Part shown: positions 10,405 to 60,803 of the stretch, piece by piece | How the letters are laid out: each line of letters begins with the position of its first letter | Numbering within the stretch: the first letter of the stretch is position 1 | Assembly: GCF_000025285.1 (NCBI RefSeq) | Contig: NC_013741.1 | Location: 372,001-436,000 of the forward strand | DNA length: 64,000 nt | Source of the DNA: Archaeoglobus profundus DSM 5631 | GTDB lineage: Archaea > Halobacteriota > Archaeoglobi > Archaeoglobales > Archaeoglobaceae | Direction: 5' to 3' | Notes under the pieces: generated by a model | The model's input: only the letters and a program-made list of their open reading frames with translations | Databases searched by the model: none | What the model was told of the DNA's origin: nothing | Position numbers and translations under genes: made by a program

Positions 10405-10801
10405 TGCCTAAGGGAATAAAGAAATAGGCCAGGGTGGCAGAGGGGCCATGCGGGGGACTGCAGATCCCCTGACCCCGGTTCAAATCCGGGCCCTGGCTTA
10501 AATTTAAATTCTCTAAAAGTTCTCTTAATTTCTCATTGATAAATGAGCTAATATCAACTTCCAGTTCTTTAGCTTTCTGTAATAGATTTTTATCAACTCC
10601 AACAAATTCTATAGAGTTGTCCAACTTGTTGTCCAACTCACTTTCATCTACTGAAATCAAGAATTTATTTTTATCAATTTCATAAATCTTAGCTCCTTTT
10701 CCAATTATTTCTTTGTATTCTAGAGGAAATCTAACAATAGGATATTCAAATCCTTCTTTTGCTTTCTTCTTTCCAATAATAGATCTACCAACTAATTTCA
10801 T
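10397..10801 (-). CDS. Integrase N-terminal fragment, int(N), split at att
   Basis: Residues 1-100 (MKLVGRSIIGKKKAKEGFEY onward) belong to the element. Residues 101-115 (LSQGPDLNRGQGICS) are read from the att sequence, antisense to the tRNA, and the last 19 residues are host read-through. The same 15 att residues occur in frame in the C fragment at the other end. Excision would give 115 + 284 = 399 residues. The N part resembles the short SpoVT/AbrB-like or arm-binding region that precedes some archaeal integrases, but I cannot name it surely. It overlaps the upstream wHTH gene by 4 bases, so the integrase promoter probably lies before that gene. Confidence 0.85.
   Translation of the reverse strand: MKLVGRSIIGKKKAKEGFEYPIVRFPLEYKEIIGKGAKIYEIDKNKFLISVDESELDNKLDNSIEFVGVDKNLLQKAKELEVDISSFINEKLRELLENLNLSQGPDLNRGQGICSPPHGPSATLAYFFIPLGSI
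10428..10498 (+). tRNA. tRNA-Cys (GCA)
   Basis: GCCAGGG at the 5' end pairs with CCCTGGC at the 3' end (7-bp acceptor). The anticodon stem GGGGA/TCCCC carries the loop CTGCAGA, so the anticodon is GCA. The T arm is CCCGG-TTCAAAT-CCGGG, and position 73 is T, as in Cys tRNAs. CCA is not encoded. The 3' part from the anticodon loop onward doubles as the attachment site of the integrated element and remains intact after integration. Confidence 0.96.
10457..10502 (+). repeat. attL: 46-bp direct repeat (tRNA-Cys side)
   Basis: The stretch from ACTGCAGATCCCC to GGCTTAAA is identical to 20127-20172. Bases outside differ on both sides (G versus C before, T versus A after). It spans the anticodon loop to just past the tRNA 3' end. 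Confidence 0.95.
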
Positions 10802-54283: not shown

Positions 54284-55702
54284 ATGGATGACGTAATCAT
54301 CGGTTTGGAAGTTCATGTCCAGTTGAACAAGTTGAAGACTAAACTCTTCTGCTCCTGTCCTCTAAACTATCACGACAGCGAACCGAACACCCACGTATGT
54401 CCGGTCTGCTTAGGATTGCCGGGGGCTATGCCGGTGGTAAATAAGGAAGCAGTTAAAGCTGCTATCAAGGTTGCTTTAGCCTTAAATGCTGAAGTTCAGC
54501 CAGTTGCCATATTCGACAGAAAGAACTACTTCTATCCCGACTTACCCAAAGGATTTCAGATAAGCCAATACGACAAGCCTTTGGCTTTGGGTGGTTACGT
54601 TACGATTGAAACTGAGGAAGGAGAGAAGAAGATCACACTCAAAAGGATTCACATGGAAGAGGATCCAGGCAAGTTAGTTTATAAGGGATCGATAACCACA
54701 GCCAAATACTGCCTAATAGACTACAACCGTTCTGGAGCACCTCTGCTTGAGATCGTTACCGAGCCTGTTATGAACTCCCCCAAGGAGGCTAGGTTGTTCC
54801 TGAACAAGCTTAGAATGATTTTGGAGTATTTGGACGTATTCGACGGTAATCTTGAAGGAGCTATGAGGGTGGATGCGAACGTATCGATAAGGGGTGGTGG
54901 AAGGGTTGAAATCAAGAACATATCAAGCTTTAAGGGAGTTGAGAGAGCTTTGACTTACGAGATTGCGAGGCAGAGAAATCTGATCAGAATGGGTAGGAGG
55001 GTTGAGAGGGAAACGAGACATTACGACGAAGTGAACAACATAACAGTCTCGTTGAGAAGCAAGGAGGAGGAGCAGGATTACCGCTACTTCCCCGAGCCTG
55101 ATTTGGTTCCAATTTACACCGCCGAATTGCTTGAAGAGGTTAAGGGAACTTTACCAGAGATGCCAGAGGAAAAGAGAGAAAGATTGAAGAGGGAATACGG
55201 CATCGGAGACAACTTCGCAAAAGTTCTAATCCTCGATAAGGTGATGGCTGATTACTTTGAAGAAGTTGCTAAGGAGATTGATCCAAAGCTCTCTGCAAGC
55301 TGGATTGTTGATGTATTAAGAGGAGAGTTGAATTACAGAGGAAGGGACTTCAGATTTGCCTATGAAGTTTTTAAGCCAAAGGAGTTTGCGAAGCTTCTGA
55401 GTTATCTCAAGAAGGGTATGATTACGGAGAAAGGGGCTGTTGAGGTCATCAGGACTAAGCTCGATCACGGTGGAGATGTTGATGAGATAATCAGGTCTAG
55501 GGGTCTGTTTGCTATAAGTAGGGAGGAGGTTGAAAAGATTTGCAGAGAAGTTGTTGAAGAGTGCAGGAAGGCTGTTGAGGATTACAGGTCTGGTAAGAAG
55601 CAGGCTCTCGATTATTTAGTCGGACAGGTTATGAAGAGGACAAGGGGTAAGGCTGATCCAGCTGAAACTGCTAAGATAATCAGGAGTTTGATAGAGGGTT
55701 GA
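54284..55702 (+). CDS. gatB: Aspartyl/glutamyl-tRNA amidotransferase subunit B
   Basis: 472 residues from [28 protein letters not shown] and [17 protein letters not shown] hold zinc ligands, and the C-terminal YqeY-like helical tail is present. With GatA and GatC it amidates Asp-tRNAAsn or Glu-tRNAGln. It is alone here without gatA/C. ATG 54284 is close behind a TTAAATAACATT promoter-like sequence, so it may be leaderless. Confidence 0.96.
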
Positions 55703-55770
55703 AAAGTCTACAAAGTACACAGCATAGTGAATTACAGAGGTTAAGAGGGCTATAAAAGCTATAAAAGTGG

Positions 55771-55845
55771 TTAGTGAACCCCCGTCTGGGACCACACCTT
55801 CATCGCTCGCTGGTGCTTCACCGCTTGGGAGTGGGTGAGCCTGTT
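55771..55845 (+). ncRNA. GC-rich structured leader before the CDF gene
   Basis: Inside an AT-rich gap, this block has CCC-GTCT-GGG, CACC-13-GGTG and CACC-11-GGTG stems. The frame is open through it, but its amino acids (NPRLGPHLHRSLVLHRLG) do not look like a CDF start. GC-rich islands in hyperthermophile spacers often mark RNA genes. It could be a metal-responsive leader or an sRNA. Confidence 0.4.
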
Positions 55846-56763
55846 ATGCATTTACACGATCGATATTTAAGCTTTAACAGAAAGGTTAAGGTTGCATTCG
55901 CAGTTTATACGATCATCGCAATACTAAAACTGGTCTGTTATTTCTTGACTGGCTTTTTGGTGATGTTTGCCGAGTTTCTGCACAATTTGGTGGACATAAC
56001 GATATTTTCGACAATAGTGTACACTCGCAAGTTGTCGGAAAAGCCACCCGATTCCACTCACCCATTCGGTCACGGTTTGGCTCAGAATGTTGGTAGTGTT
56101 GTGATTTCAGTCGTTTTCGTGACAGTTATAGCGTTGGAGTTGGTAAGAGAGGGTATCGAGAGAATTCTCCACCCCTATACAGGGCACTTTCCAGAATTGG
56201 CCATTACAGTTCTAATTTTCAGCTTGGTAGCCTCATCGATTCTCTACGTAATCTTCGGTAGTGAGATAGTTGCAGAGAGAGCGACAAGAGCGGAGCTTTA
56301 CAACGATATACTTTCAAATGTAGGGGCACTAGCGGGGATCTTACTCACTTCCGTCGGTTATCCGAGAGCGGACGGTTTTCTAACGATTTTCATAGCTTTT
56401 CTGATATGCAGGAACGGTTACAGGCTTTTTAAGGAAAACGTCACGTATCTACTCGGTAAAAGTCCAGATGAAGAAGTTTACGTTAAGATCAAGGAAATAA
56501 CGGAATCCTTTCCAGAAGTTTTAGACGTTCACGACATCATAGCAATCTATACGGGGGAAAATTCACTTCACGTCGATATGCACGTAACCGTGAGGGGGGA
56601 TATGAAGGTTAAAGAGGCGGATGAGCTAACCAAAAGAATTGCGAAGAAGCTTATGGAGAATATTCCAGAGATAAGCTACGTATTAATTCACGTTTGCGCC
56701 GAAAGGGGAGAAATCGTTAAATCGACCAGTAACAACGTCATGAGAAAGGTTTACGATATGTAG
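55846..56763 (+). CDS. Cation diffusion facilitator (CDF) transporter
   Basis: About 305 residues from MHLHDRYLSFNRKVKVAFAV. Six membrane helices; LVMFAEFLHNLVDITIFST holds the HxxxD metal site of TM2, HPFGHGLAQNVG is the conserved loop, and ELYNDILSNVGALAG the TM5 site. The cytoplasmic C-domain (VLDVHDIIAIYTG, then LHVDMHVTVRG) has the His/Asp fold of the family. It exports Zn, Fe, Mn or Co. The ATG follows GGGTGAGCC. Confidence 0.88.
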   Translation: MHLHDRYLSFNRKVKVAFAVYTIIAILKLVCYFLTGFLVMFAEFLHNLVDITIFSTIVYTRKLSEKPPDSTHPFGHGLAQNVGSVVISVVFVTVIALELVREGIERILHPYTGHFPELAITVLIFSLVASSILYVIFGSEIVAERATRAELYNDILSNVGALAGILLTSVGYPRADGFLTIFIAFLICRNGYRLFKENVTYLLGKSPDEEVYVKIKEITESFPEVLDVHDIIAIYTGENSLHVDMHVTVRGDMKVKEADELTKRIAKKLMENIPEISYVLIHVCAERGEIVKSTSNNVMRKVYDM

Positions 56764-56821
56764 CCCGCGCGGAGCCCACGGGGTCTCATGCTTCTCAACC
56801 CCGCCGGGTTTGCGGGCATTG
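56764..56821 (-). ncRNA. GC-rich stem-loop after the CDF gene; possible H/ACA guide RNA on the minus strand
   Basis: GCCCGC/GCGGGC close the base, an internal loop follows, and a second stem (CGGGGT/ACCCCG plus CCC/GGG with one bulge) encloses a TGAGAAGCATGAG loop that has kink-loop-like TGA and GA. Read on the minus strand, TACA follows the stem directly, as the ACA box should. The lower stem is short. On the plus strand it could simply be a terminator. Confidence 0.42.
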
Positions 56822-56890
56822 TTTACTACGCATGGAGGTATTAATCGTTAACGCTTAGGTTTTTATATTTTCAGCGCATTCACTCTTTCA

Positions 56891-59158
56891 ATGGAAGCGG
56901 AAATCTGGGTTGAAAAGTACAGGCCTAAGACCTTGGACGAAGTGGTCGATCAGGAGGAAGTTGTTAAGAGGTTGAAAAACTACGTCAAACAGAAGAACAT
57001 ACCTCACCTACTCTTCGCGGGTCCTCCTGGGACTGGTAAAACAGCAACGGCAATAGCCTTAACGAGAGATTTGTTCGGAGAAAATTGGAGGGATAACTTC
57101 ATTGAGCTAAATGCTTCGGTTTCTAAGGATACACCTATACTCGTAAGGATAGACGGTCAAATCAGGAGGGTAACGTTCGAAGAACTCGACAAAATATACT
57201 TCAAGGACTCGAATGAGGAATATGTTAAGGTTGACAACTTGGAAGTCTTGACCGTTGATAGGAACTACAAAGTTGCATGGGCGAAAGTTTCGACACTAAT
57301 CAGACATTGGGTTCCAAAGATTCTCAGGATTCATTTGGAAGGTGGTGGCGTAATAGAACTGACGGGAAATCATTCAGTAATGATTCTGAGCGAGGAGGGG
57401 TTAAAAGCAATCAAAGCAAGCGAAATTAAGGAAGGAGAATACCTTCTAAGCTTTACCGCGGAACTTGAAGGAAATCTTAACGTTATAGATCTATCAGACT
57501 ACGGATCCAAGGTCGTAACTTCAAGAACTGTTGTGTTAAATGATCTGGAACTAAACGAAAATAGCTCATGGGTCTTTGGACTATACACCGCAGGGGGAGC
57601 TGTAGGGTTTAAAGGTAATACATCTGGTCAAATTGTTTATACGGTAAATGCGGAAGAACAGAATTTAGCGAACCGAATAGGGAATTTTGCCGATTACTAC
57701 AACATCGGTGTTTACGAAAACTACACCACTTCCGGTTTCAATAGAGAAAGATTATCAGCTAAGCAGATCAGAATATTAAGCACACAGTTGGCTAAATTCT
57801 TCAGAGACAACTTCTACGATGGAAATGGCTTCAAGGCTAAGAACAAGCGAGTTCCAAGCTTCATGTTCTCGGCAAAGCTTGAGAACAGATTGTCTTATCT
57901 CAAAGGCTTGTATGAGGGCGATGGCTACGGTGAGTGGGGCAACGTTATCAGAATATTCTCGGTTTCGAAGGATTTGCTAATTGATGTTGCTTGGCTCGCA
58001 AGGATTTCCGGAATTGAAAGCTCGATATTCGATAGAGAGGTTAGACTGATATGGAGAGGCAAAATGAACTGGAAGAAAAGTGATCTCCTACCAGCGAAGC
58101 CAATTATATCATTGATTGAAAAGATAGAGAAAAAGATCAAAGGAAACTGGAGATACGAGTTTAGACATCAACTATATGATGGAAGGGATAGGATTTCAAA
58201 GGATACGCTTAAAAGAATCGTGAAGATGATCGATGAATACGAGCTGTCCGAAAACGAGAAGAAGATATTTGAATTGCTTAAAAAGCTTGCTTGCACAGAC
58301 TTGCACGCTTTAAAAGTTAAGAAGATTGAAATAGTAGATTACGACGACTACGTTTACGATGTTTCAGTGCCGAACAATGAAATGTTCTTCGCTGGAAACA
58401 TTCCCATCTTACTGCACAACTCCGATGAAAGGGGGATAGACGTTGTTAGACATAAGATAAAGGAGTTTGCGAGGACTGCTCCGATTGGAGGAGCTCCTTT
58501 CAAAATAATCTTCTTGGATGAAGCTGATGCACTGACTCCTGATGCGCAAGCTGCTTTAAGAAGGACTATGGAGATGTATTCCAAGACTTGCAGATTTATA
58601 CTGAGCTGTAACTACATAAGCAGAATTATCGAGCCAATACAGAGTAGATGTGCCGTTTTCAAGTTCAAACCCGTTCCGCCAGAGGCTATGAAGAAGAGGC
58701 TTAAGGAGATTGCTGAGAAAGAGGGGGTTAAGATTACCGACGACGCTTTAGATGCTTTGGTTTACATAGCAAACGGAGATTTTAGAAAGGCTATAAACGC
58801 TTTGCAAGGTGCTGCAGCTTTGGGTGAGGTTGTTACTGCTGAAGCTATTTATCAGATTACAGCAACTGCAAGACCTGAGGAAATGAGAAAGCTCATAGAG
58901 ACTGCTTTGAGCGGTAAGTTCTTAGAAGCTAGACAAATTTTGGACAGGATGATGGTCGAATATGGTATGAGCGGTGAGGACATTGTTTCACAGCTTTTCA
59001 GGGAGATAATATCTTCGAACTTGGATGAGAGGGTTAAGGTTATGCTGATAGACAAGCTTGGAGAGATAGATTTCAGGCTGACGGAAGGAGCTCACGACAG
59101 GATCCAGCTTGACGCCTATTTAGCATATTTAGCAACTATTGGTAAAAAGCTGTCATGA
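56891..59158 (+). CDS. rfcS: Replication factor C small subunit, intein-containing precursor
   Basis: The 755-residue precursor starts MEAEIWVEKYRPKTLDEVVD. Walker A GPPGTGKT is at 44-51. The host sequence ELNA-SDERGIDVVR is interrupted by an intein (57116-58420). FLDEADALTPDAQAALRRTM is Walker B, and QSRC the SRC arginine finger. The mature protein is about 320 residues, the small RFC subunit that loads PCNA. Its stop overlaps the next gene's ATG. Confidence 0.97.
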   Translation: MEAEIWVEKYRPKTLDEVVDQEEVVKRLKNYVKQKNIPHLLFAGPPGTGKTATAIALTRDLFGENWRDNFIELNASVSKDTPILVRIDGQIRRVTFEELDKIYFKDSNEEYVKVDNLEVLTVDRNYKVAWAKVSTLIRHWVPKILRIHLEGGGVIELTGNHSVMILSEEGLKAIKASEIKEGEYLLSFTAELEGNLNVIDLSDYGSKVVTSRTVVLNDLELNENSSWVFGLYTAGGAVGFKGNTSGQIVYTVNAEEQNLANRIGNFADYYNIGVYENYTTSGFNRERLSAKQIRILSTQLAKFFRDNFYDGNGFKAKNKRVPSFMFSAKLENRLSYLKGLYEGDGYGEWGNVIRIFSVSKDLLIDVAWLARISGIESSIFDREVRLIWRGKMNWKKSDLLPAKPIISLIEKIEKKIKGNWRYEFRHQLYDGRDRISKDTLKRIVKMIDEYELSENEKKIFELLKKLACTDLHALKVKKIEIVDYDDYVYDVSVPNNEMFFAGNIPILLHNSDERGIDVVRHKIKEFARTAPIGGAPFKIIFLDEADALTPDAQAALRRTMEMYSKTCRFILSCNYISRIIEPIQSRCAVFKFKPVPPEAMKKRLKEIAEKEGVKITDDALDALVYIANGDFRKAINALQGAAALGEVVTAEAIYQITATARPEEMRKLIETALSGKFLEARQILDRMMVEYGMSGEDIVSQLFREIISSNLDERVKVMLIDKLGEIDFRLTEGAHDRIQLDAYLAYLATIGKKLS
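57116..58420 (+). other. Intein in RfcS (435 residues) with damaged first LAGLIDADG motif
   Basis: Ser1 (SVSKDTPILVRIDG) starts it, LTGNHSVMIL is block B, and the end is NEMFFAGNIPILLHN, with His-Asn and +1 Ser. It uses Ser rather than Cys at position 1. Motif one reads VFGLYTAGG, with Gly where the catalytic Asp belongs; motif two LKGLYEGDG is normal. Splicing should work, but DNA cutting is probably lost. Confidence 0.93.
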
Positions 59159-59538
59159 AGGTCAGAATAGCCGGATTGCATGCAAGTGACAAGAAACCAG
59201 TTGTTGGAGATGAAGTCGTCATTAGGGGATACGTCCAGAGGTACGATGATAAGAGAAAGATGTGGATTCCGATTAGAACGAGAGTCTGGGTGGATGTGGA
59301 TGGGATAAACTACGGTGTTGTTTACAGCAATCCAGACGGTAGCTTCGAGTTCAGATACAGCTCGGGAGTTAAGGGGAAGAAGAGGGTAGAGTTCAAGGCA
59401 GAGGGTTGCAAGAGGGAAATAGAGATCGAATTCGTCGGAGAGGAGGAGAAGAGGAGAGTTAATAGGATTGGAACGATTGTTGTGGCGATTTTAATCCTCC
59501 TCTTAATTTTGCTCTACCTGATCATGGTGCTCGTATGA
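59155..59538 (+). CDS. Tail-anchored Ig-like protein, 127 residues
   Basis: MKVRIAGLHASDKKPVVGDE begins a beta-sandwich-like domain (residues 1-95; VNPDG-type loop YSNPDGSFEFRYSSG). A single membrane helix, TIVVAILILLLILLYL, ends the protein. It overlaps the rfcS stop by ATGA. Function unknown; it appears to be part of the rfcS operon. Confidence 0.65.
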   Translation: MKVRIAGLHASDKKPVVGDEVVIRGYVQRYDDKRKMWIPIRTRVWVDVDGINYGVVYSNPDGSFEFRYSSGVKGKKRVEFKAEGCKREIEIEFVGEEEKRRVNRIGTIVVAILILLLILLYLIMVLV

Positions 59539-59642
59539 TCAACAATTTTAATGAAATTGTTATCGAATGTAACTATTTAATAATAAATGAAATATATAAA
59601 TTAACCGAAAATTTTATAAATTATGTATGCAAACAAACACAC

Positions 59643-60803
59643 ATGGGCGATGAAGTAAGCCTAACGGGAGTTGTGGAGATGACCGTTAGGGCAGAGCCCT
59701 TAGTTCAGTTAATCAGAAATTATACGAATGCGCTAAGGTTTGTAGTTCACGAAATTCTGAGAGACCCAAGCAAATACGGTAGATGGAGATATGTCAAAAG
59801 AAGCAAAAGAATCAAGTGGGAACACGATTTAAGAAGAATTCACCACAGTTTTTACGAGGTTTTAAAGTATAGATTTAGCTTACCACCGAAGTTTGCAATT
59901 GCATGTCAGAAAGAAGCTGTAGCGATTGTTAAGTCGGTTCTAAACAATGAAAACAACGGAGGTAAGTGCGTCATCAAGAATTACAGAGCGAGAGTAGATT
60001 ACCAAGCTTATAAAATTGAGGTTAGGAATGGTAAATGTTATCTGAAGCTCAGAAACTTTGATGAGATTGAGGTAACGGGATTTTCGAGAAAGTGGTTTAC
60101 AAAGTTCAAAGATTGGAGATTAGGAGATCTGATAATGAAGCTTGAAAATGGACTCGTTAAGCTCTTCGTAACATTCAAGAAAACTGTTAAGGTAGCAGAA
60201 CCGTCAGAGAATGCCGTGGCGGTGGATTTAAACTTTGAAGAGGTTGTACTGGGTAACCACGAATTTGAGGTGAGGTTTAAAACACCCTTACGAAAAATCA
60301 TACACTTGAAAAAGAATCACATCGAGAAAACTCAGAAGAAGTATAATAGGAAGTGGAGATACGTTAAGGGAATAAGAAATGCAATCTCAAGATGGTGGAG
60401 CAGAATTAACGGTATTACAAACGATTTCGTAAAGCAAGTCTCAAGAAGGATTGTAGTATTTGTGAAAGAAAGAGGATATGACACGATAGTGCTTGAAGAC
60501 CTGAACGGGTTAAAGGATGAGCAAGCCAAGTTAAGGAAATCTTGGAGAGAAAGATTTACGTTCTTCGCTTACCGTAAGTTACAGAATTGGATTGAATGGC
60601 AGGCTAAGAAAGAAGGATTAGCAGTGGTTTACGTCAATCCCGCAAATACGTCAAAAACCTGTCCTAAGTGCAAGAGCTTGAATACTGAATTCAGAGAAAG
60701 AATCCTAATTTGTAAAGATTGTGGATTTACAATGAACAGAGATTCGGTGGCTGTGATTAATTTGGTAGACAGATGGTTGTCCATCATGGGGTGTGCCGTG
60801 TGA
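59643..60803 (+). CDS. tnpB: TnpB RNA-guided nuclease homologue (IS605 OrfB)
   Basis: About 386 residues from MGDEVSLTGVVEMTVRAEPL. RuvC-I Asp in NAVAVDLNFEEV, RuvC-II Glu in DTIVLEDLNGL, zinc ribbon CPKC...CKDC, and RuvC-III Asp in NRDSVAVINL are all present. The sequence is only distantly like the other TnpB in this window. The frame is intact. The longer frame from 59535 starts in AT-rich promoter-like DNA, so the ATG at 59643 is chosen. Confidence 0.92.
   Translation: MGDEVSLTGVVEMTVRAEPLVQLIRNYTNALRFVVHEILRDPSKYGRWRYVKRSKRIKWEHDLRRIHHSFYEVLKYRFSLPPKFAIACQKEAVAIVKSVLNNENNGGKCVIKNYRARVDYQAYKIEVRNGKCYLKLRNFDEIEVTGFSRKWFTKFKDWRLGDLIMKLENGLVKLFVTFKKTVKVAEPSENAVAVDLNFEEVVLGNHEFEVRFKTPLRKIIHLKKNHIEKTQKKYNRKWRYVKGIRNAISRWWSRINGITNDFVKQVSRRIVVFVKERGYDTIVLEDLNGLKDEQAKLRKSWRERFTFFAYRKLQNWIEWQAKKEGLAVVYVNPANTSKTCPKCKSLNTEFRERILICKDCGFTMNRDSVAVINLVDRWLSIMGCAV

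Follow-up and report, generated by a model that had tools for sequence, protein, structure and literature searches.

Two GC-rich blocks flank the gene of a CDF metal transporter in Archaeoglobus profundus, and we consider both, with a probability of roughly 80%, to be minus-strand genes for pseudouridylation guide RNAs: the block on the 3' side would encode a canonical H/ACA sRNA, the one on the 5' side an H/ACA-like RNA. The basis for this reading consists of the conservation and covariation of the blocks, their K-loop and K-turn motifs, a minus-strand promoter signal, guides whose complementarity exceeds that of most shuffles, and the Cbf5 gene (528 bits) in the genome of A. profundus. From these features we infer transcription, RNP assembly and rRNA modification for both RNAs. 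Coordinates refer to the window, i.e. the whole stretch of 64,000 nucleotides that was analyzed.

The initial annotation of this DNA described a CDF metal transporter gene between GC-rich stretches and suspected structured RNA in the latter, possibly with a metal-sensing leader in front of the transporter. The identity of the gene is confirmed by its Pfam matches (Table 1). Its neighbors are gatB upstream and, downstream, a replication factor C subunit gene (56891-59158) split by an intein with homing-endonuclease motifs; further on, at 59535-60803, lies a 422-aa ORF that by eye resembles transposon proteins of the TnpB/IS605 OrfB type, zinc-ribbon end included. The likely start codon is the ATG at 55846, and the 5' block directly abuts the ORF. 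The unusual composition is likewise real: G+C amounts to 60% at 55771-55845 and 70.7% at 56764-56821, compared with 40.9% in the window, where equally GC-rich stretches of the same lengths make up only 0.17% (5' block) and 0.02% (3' block). Folding energies sustain the suspected structures in part. The CACC/GGTG and CCC/GGG words that had been read as three short leader stems are present, but the plus-strand fold of the 5' leader is no better than chance (z +0.95; 174 of 200 shuffles as good), and neither is the minus-strand fold of this block (z +1.08). The strong stem-loop on the 3' side holds for 56758-56830, which folds better than shuffles in both orientations (plus z -2.42, minus z -2.33), but not for the shifted plus-strand stretch 56764-56840 (z -0.07). 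A search of the whole window against Rfam at the gathering threshold matches solely a tRNA at 10428; at E≤10, the region 55600-57000 yields no riboswitch and two matches far under their gathering scores. That the islands mark structured RNA is borne out by the covariance search in related genomes, with compensatory changes at 11 of 15 pairs in the 3' block and at 7 of 8 stem pairs in the 5' block. Both are conserved, including at loci that have no CDF gene, and the evidence assigns both to the minus strand.

Table 1. Features of the CDF locus of A. profundus, with window coordinates; RNA features are predicted.
Feature	Position	Strand	Basis
CDF cation-efflux transporter gene	55846..56763	+	PF01545 and PF16916; between two putative minus-strand RNA genes
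Canonical H/ACA guide RNA (mature core)	56759..56817	-	R1 84.9 bits, covariation, fold z -2.78
ACA box	56759..56761	-	ACA in 21/22 strong rows of alignment A5; L104 = GCA
Lower stem, 5' strand GCCCGC	56812..56817	-	Pairs with 56763-56768; 6/6 pairs changed on both sides
Lower stem, 3' strand GCGGGC	56763..56768	-	Partner of 56812-56817
5' guide segment AAACCCG	56805..56811	-	Target scan; pairs 3' of target uridine
3' guide segment GGCUCC	56771..56776	-	Target scan; pairs 5' of target uridine
K-loop (UGA ... AUGA), predicted L7Ae site	56786..56797	-	Conserved in alignments A4, A5
H/ACA-like guide RNA (K-turn stem, two guide segments, without lower stem)	55774..55842	-	Models R2, R3; 7/8 stem pairs covary
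Ten-layer GA stem, 5' strand including AA of K-turn	55825..55834	-	Layer count and covariation
Ten-layer GA stem, 3' strand starting with GA of K-turn	55792..55801	-	Layer count and covariation
K-turn bulge GAU	55802..55804	-	NRU in 15/15 rows
5' guide segment GCUCAC	55835..55840	-	Target scan
3' guide segment UCCCAG	55786..55791	-	Target scan
Degenerate NCA box (UCA)	55775..55777	-	14 nt past GA stem; NCA at 14-15 nt in 8/16 rows
TATA-like element GCTTAAAT of H/ACA-like RNA gene	55865..55872	-	Within 5' end of CDF ORF

With a cutoff of E<1e-4, a search at the DNA level detects the 3' block in 11 of 60 genomes, the own genome counted; in five of them (G013, G023, G003, G015, G024) it lies distant from CDF. 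The covariance model R1, built from these 11 sequences with that of A. profundus among them, has 24 matches of at least 45 bits in 22 of the 57 genomes of the order, and 11 of these genomes are outside the model-building set. At E≤0.5, matches extend to 41 of 57 genomes, the weaker ones belonging mostly to a second H/ACA family. CDF adjoins the block in only 7 of 22 loci. In the minus-strand reading, an internal loop separates the stem GCCCGC/GCGGGC from a second stem, which carries a loop of the type UGA-GAAGC-AUGA, and an ACA follows; the form UGA..AUGA or UGA..UGA of the K-loop is conserved in A4 and A5. Among the 22 strong rows (19 distinct), changes on both sides affect each of the six lower pairs and five of the nine upper ones, while 268 of 272 cells remain paired; 36 cells are changed on both sides, compared with 9.1 in shuffles and a maximum of 15 over 500 shuffles. 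When all 31 rows (27 distinct) of two families are mixed, the figures are 11 of 15 pairs, 71 cells and 96.4% paired; the 22-row count describes one family. The strand is indicated by 19 G-U versus 2 A-C cells in the minus-strand reading, which the plus-strand reading reverses; the strand and target counts from A5 omit its last row (L097, in wrong orientation) and the second-family rows L114-L121. By the ten-layer count, the distance from the upper stem to the ACA is 14-15 nt in 11 of the 22 rows, 16 nt in 8, 13 nt in 2, and 12 nt in 1; A. profundus has 16 nt, or 15 with one bulged G. One member (G014) has a poor 3' guide. These sequence features identify the 3' block as a putative minus-strand gene of the box H/ACA sRNA type. 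A second, weaker copy of this family is seen in G013 (C1:884354-884411, 47.0 bits) and in G023 (C28:1897-1954, 49.6 bits).

The 5' block is found strongly in six genomes and weakly in two by DNA search. The model R2 has 22 matches, of which 17 were kept; we dropped L138, L140 and L141, which by eye are without K-turn motif, as well as L142 and L143, which have the same sequence, L143 lying inside the 23S gene of G013. A further model, R3, built from 15 of the 17, refinds 16 of them and adds a homolog from another family of the class (G038), but nothing in G007 and G019, the source genomes of L140 and L141. Over 246 genomes of the phylum, R3 matches at E≤0.05 in 28, but with at least 37 bits in just 17. 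A CDF gene within the fetched 3-kb locus, our definition of adjacency, is present at 7 of 18 loci (G000, G002, G010, G035, G020, G029, G069). Alignment A7 omits G029, whose block sequence equals that of G020, and the damaged copy of G023 (L139 / L172), in which part of the 3' side of the stem is lost, by appearance through decay or an assembly fault.

In A7, the helix 12-19/50-57 shows both-side changes at seven of its eight pairs and in 28 cells versus 11.1 in shuffles, counts that, like those of the 3' block, are not independent, as the rows are related; sliding the helix abolishes the pairing. Above this helix, the 3' strand of all 15 rows reads GC, NRU and GA in that order, and their 5' strand has an A preceding GC, i.e. 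a K-turn core with NRU-GA and the 1n A; at position 2n, 12 rows have A, 2 have U, and 1 has G. The second G.A pair of the K-turn is fully canonical in G013 and G038 only, and G038 replaces the apical GC/GC pairs by AC/GU. Counted from the K-turn, the tenth layer pairs in 14 of 15 rows and a hypothetical eleventh, by inspection, in none; these borders were set by rule and not fitted, those of G038 by hand. A lower stem is absent: the mean score is 8.6 for the 16 rows versus 8.9 for random places, whose 95th percentile none of the rows attains, whereas 20 of the 22 canonical rows score at least 14, in a slightly different search range. At 14-15 nt past the stem, an ANA box occurs in only 2 of 16 rows, NCA in 8 – mostly close relatives – and neither in 6. 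Other parts vary as well. The 5' guides of G002 and G031 are poor, and some members have T runs soon after the 3' guide, while others carry a small 3' hairpin overlapping it. In A. profundus, the GA stem contains one U.U and one C.A opposition, and the minimum-energy fold of the RNA alone is without the GA stem and less stable than most shuffles (z +1.44). Hence, proteins would have to assist its folding.

The orientation of the 5' RNA is indicated by several lines of evidence. A full 7/7 match to a simple TATA consensus at -45 to -21 on the minus strand occurs in 12 of 17 loci, against a background of 3.6% of 25-base stretches, and in 2 of 17 for the corresponding plus-strand stretch, where the block end is not a mapped start; as the loci are related, the binomial value is a guide only. 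In G002, G010, G069 and G013, no more than a few bases separate the start of the block from the end of the upstream plus-strand gene, which leaves no room for a plus-strand promoter, and the gene that comes next on the plus side is convergent in G003 and G013. T runs follow the RNA downstream in G073, G022 and G020, and G-U to A-C cells stand at 6:2 in favor of the minus strand. In G076 (L137 1436-1575), the RNA lies immediately upstream of tRNA-Val(CAC), both on the minus strand, which suggests a joint sRNA-tRNA transcript. In G003, a gene of the same strand begins about 60 bases past the end of the RNA, which may act there as its leader.

How do the two candidates compare with known guides? 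According to PMC4652768, canonical archaeal H/ACA RNAs have a lower stem of about 9 bp and an ANA box 14-15 nt past the upper stem, and working guides have an upper stem of ten layers. The 3' block resembles Pab21 and Pab91 of Pyrococcus and Af46, Af4 and Af190 of A. fulgidus in its lower stem, pocket, upper stem with K-loop and ACA, and in guides that flank the target uridine on both sides; the K-loop of Pab21 and Pab91 is also documented in PMC3726423. It differs from these sRNAs in its guides and in its predicted 16S target, and U927 is not among the A. fulgidus sites S1004, S1167, L2601, L2639, L1970, L1364 and L2878 named in section 14 of PMC4652768. The Pyrobaculum H/ACA-like RNAs have, by the same paper, lost the lower stem and carry an ANA or NCA box, or none in 14%. 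The 5' block shares with these RNAs (sR203-sR210) the K-turn GA stem, the missing lower stem and an NCA box that is degenerate or absent (PMC4652768), but differs from them in its host group, Archaeoglobi, in the variable second G.A pair of the K-turn, and in the T runs or the overlapping small hairpin at the 3' guide. With neither the lower stem of about 9 bp nor the regular ANA box, and with a ten-layer GA stem and K-turn, it falls outside canonical H/ACA RNAs and within the structural description of H/ACA-like RNAs; its guide function is predicted from sequence. Our comparison extends to open-licence PMC papers, and for neither RNA do we claim that it is unpublished. In the genome G033, presumably that of A. 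fulgidus, neither guide was found; the one R1 match there (28.7 bits) was assigned to the other H/ACA family.

Targets were sought among the uridines of A. profundus 16S and 23S rRNA with guide borders fixed by the stem and not fitted, except for two start offsets permitted for the canonical 3' guide. With nine diverse members of the canonical family, 16S U927 in GUGGAGCC-U-G-CGGUUU ranks first of 630 uridines (253.0 versus a best of 251.8 in 300 shuffles). Two other candidates were set aside: 23S U2664, a first guess by reading, was overtaken by the scan, and 16S U75, which led in an early and freer scan, came second under fixed borders. For the 5' family, 16S U1287 in CUGGGA-U-C-GAGGGCU ranks first across six genera (183.9 versus a best of 175.2 in 400 shuffles). 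The margin is narrow with 16 sequences (418.2 versus 416.6), and in an earlier 15-row test the observed 381.2 stayed below the largest of 60 shuffles, 409.3. The shuffle margins of both target calls are thus real but modest. By our own count, U927 and U1287 would be E. coli U950 and U1307; likewise, by our own count, 23S U2664 would be E. coli U2580. Position 922 of P. abyssi 16S rRNA, named in PMC4652768, may correspond to U927.

Two observations weigh more than the shuffle margins. The 5' guide GCAGCCCUC of G038, a homolog found after the target had been proposed, is complementary in 9 of 9 bases to the U1287 site, the comparison being made with A. profundus rRNA rather than with that of G038. 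In addition, the same rule applied to four members of the second H/ACA family ranks 23S GACCG-U-CGUGAGAC first (without shuffles), the site that corresponds to L2639 of A. fulgidus at a numbering offset of 5, the sole one of 61 offsets that makes all five published 23S positions U. L2639 is given as a pseudouridylation site, and these positions are listed, in PMC4652768. To this second family, which R1 matches at lower scores in many genomes of the order, we assign G000:C1:1196757-1196809 (outside the window), G033:C1:413570-413622 and L114-L121; the G000 and G033 copies were placed there by match length and score, not by alignment. The family is presumably Af46.

What is more difficult is the assignment of a single site to the 5' RNA. 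A look-alike in 23S rRNA, U2656 in GGGGA-U-C-GUGAGC, scores 28.7 in A. profundus versus 27.4 for 16S U1287, and it stands above U1287 in 8 of 16 rows (G000, G010, G035, G020, G073, G012, G022, G076). By contrast, the 5' guide scarcely pairs at U2656 in G003, G013, G069 and G038, and the family-wide score of U2656 is below the shuffle mean. The 16S and 23S sites are identical across the seven rRNA pairs read. We therefore take 16S U1287 as the probable target of the family as a whole; because U2656 equals or surpasses it in half of the rows, A. profundus included, one or both sites may be served in this species. The competing 23S site slightly lowers our confidence in the reading of the two blocks as guides.

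The metal-sensing leader remains to be weighed against this interpretation. A metal-sensing or other cis-regulatory plus-strand leader of the CDF mRNA would agree with the 5' block preceding CDF at 7 of the 18 loci, with a TATAAAAG pair on the plus strand of A. profundus at 55751-55767, and with a plus-strand pairing GCUCGC/GUGAGC that can be drawn in some species. However, 11 of the 18 loci are without CDF in the fetched locus, a full plus-strand TATA match occurs in only 2 of 17 in the stretch tested (the TATAAAAG pair itself lies nearer to the block than that stretch), and the pseudoknot drawn with GCUCGC/GUGAGC in the first alignments breaks in G002, G069 and G023. Together with the convergent genes of G003 and G013 and the 6:2 ratio of G-U to A-C, these observations make such a leader very improbable. 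Across homologs the block does not behave as a riboswitch should, that is, as the same-strand 5' UTR of a regulated gene; promoter signal, scarcity of CDF at the loci of both blocks and the Rfam search all speak against the proposal of the initial annotation. The CDF homologs of G013 (presumably Ferroglobus placidus), G003 and G015 (presumably Geoglobus), G024 and G007 (which we take to be A. veneficus) are adjoined by neither block. An even smaller chance is left to the view that the 3' block serves the CDF gene as a terminator or as a hairpin of its 3' UTR: a strong hairpin does start at the CDF stop codon, with TTT near its plus-strand end, but the block of G002 is 98% identical, as against 66% for the CDF protein of that genome, 15 of 22 loci have no adjoining CDF, K-loop and ACA fit the minus strand, and so does the 19:2 ratio of G-U to A-C.

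A more serious competitor, which we nevertheless regard as unlikely, accepts the minus strand and the K-turn and denies the 5' RNA a role in pseudouridylation; it might, for instance, be a regulator that binds L7Ae or act antisense to the leader of the CDF mRNA. K-turn and promoter are clear while lower stem and regular ACA are absent, and in A. profundus the RNA does lie antisense to the presumed CDF leader. On the other hand, 14 of 15 rows have a stem that stops after ten layers, as published guides do, and both flanks fit one 16S site across genera, the distant homolog found later included. A box C/D guide was discarded by inspection, as the 5' block contains no pair of C (RUGAUGA) and D (CUGA) boxes on either strand.

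According to the guide RNA model, the 3' block would give rise to a one-hairpin canonical H/ACA sRNA, whose K-loop would be bound by L7Ae and whose stem, pocket and ACA box would be bound by Cbf5, Nop10 and Gar1. With GGCUCC below and AAACC(C)G above, its guides would hold the 16S rRNA on both sides of U927, and this uridine would be isomerised. The 5' block would produce an H/ACA-like sRNA with a ten-layer stem, a K-turn and a guide segment on each side, but no lower stem and, in some members, no NCA or ANA box either; the RNA probably starts near its 5' guide. We put forward tentatively, at a little less than even odds, a wider proposal: guides free of a lower stem exist beyond Pyrobaculum, in Archaeoglobi, and start approximately at their own 5' guide; one such RNA may serve a 16S site together with its 23S look-alike, and in A. 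profundus, where it lies antisense to the presumed CDF leader, it could act on this leader as well.

The analysis adds two candidate RNA genes for Archaeoglobi, predicts rRNA modification sites that can be tested, and reinterprets a presumed leader as a putative RNA gene on the opposite strand. If a guide free of a lower stem does exist outside Pyrobaculum, this would show that Cbf5 can use stripped-down guides in distant archaea, and the minimal requirements for RNA-guided pseudouridylation would become open to direct testing. Among the loci examined, the RNAs lie beside CDF only in the own genus and in one other (g9). The adjacency hence appears to reflect the gene order of two genera, and the RNAs probably do not serve mainly to regulate the transporter. 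The TATAAAAG boxes of A. profundus stand in tandem and are absent from this place in the other loci printed; a CDF transcript started from them would run antisense to the H/ACA-like RNA.
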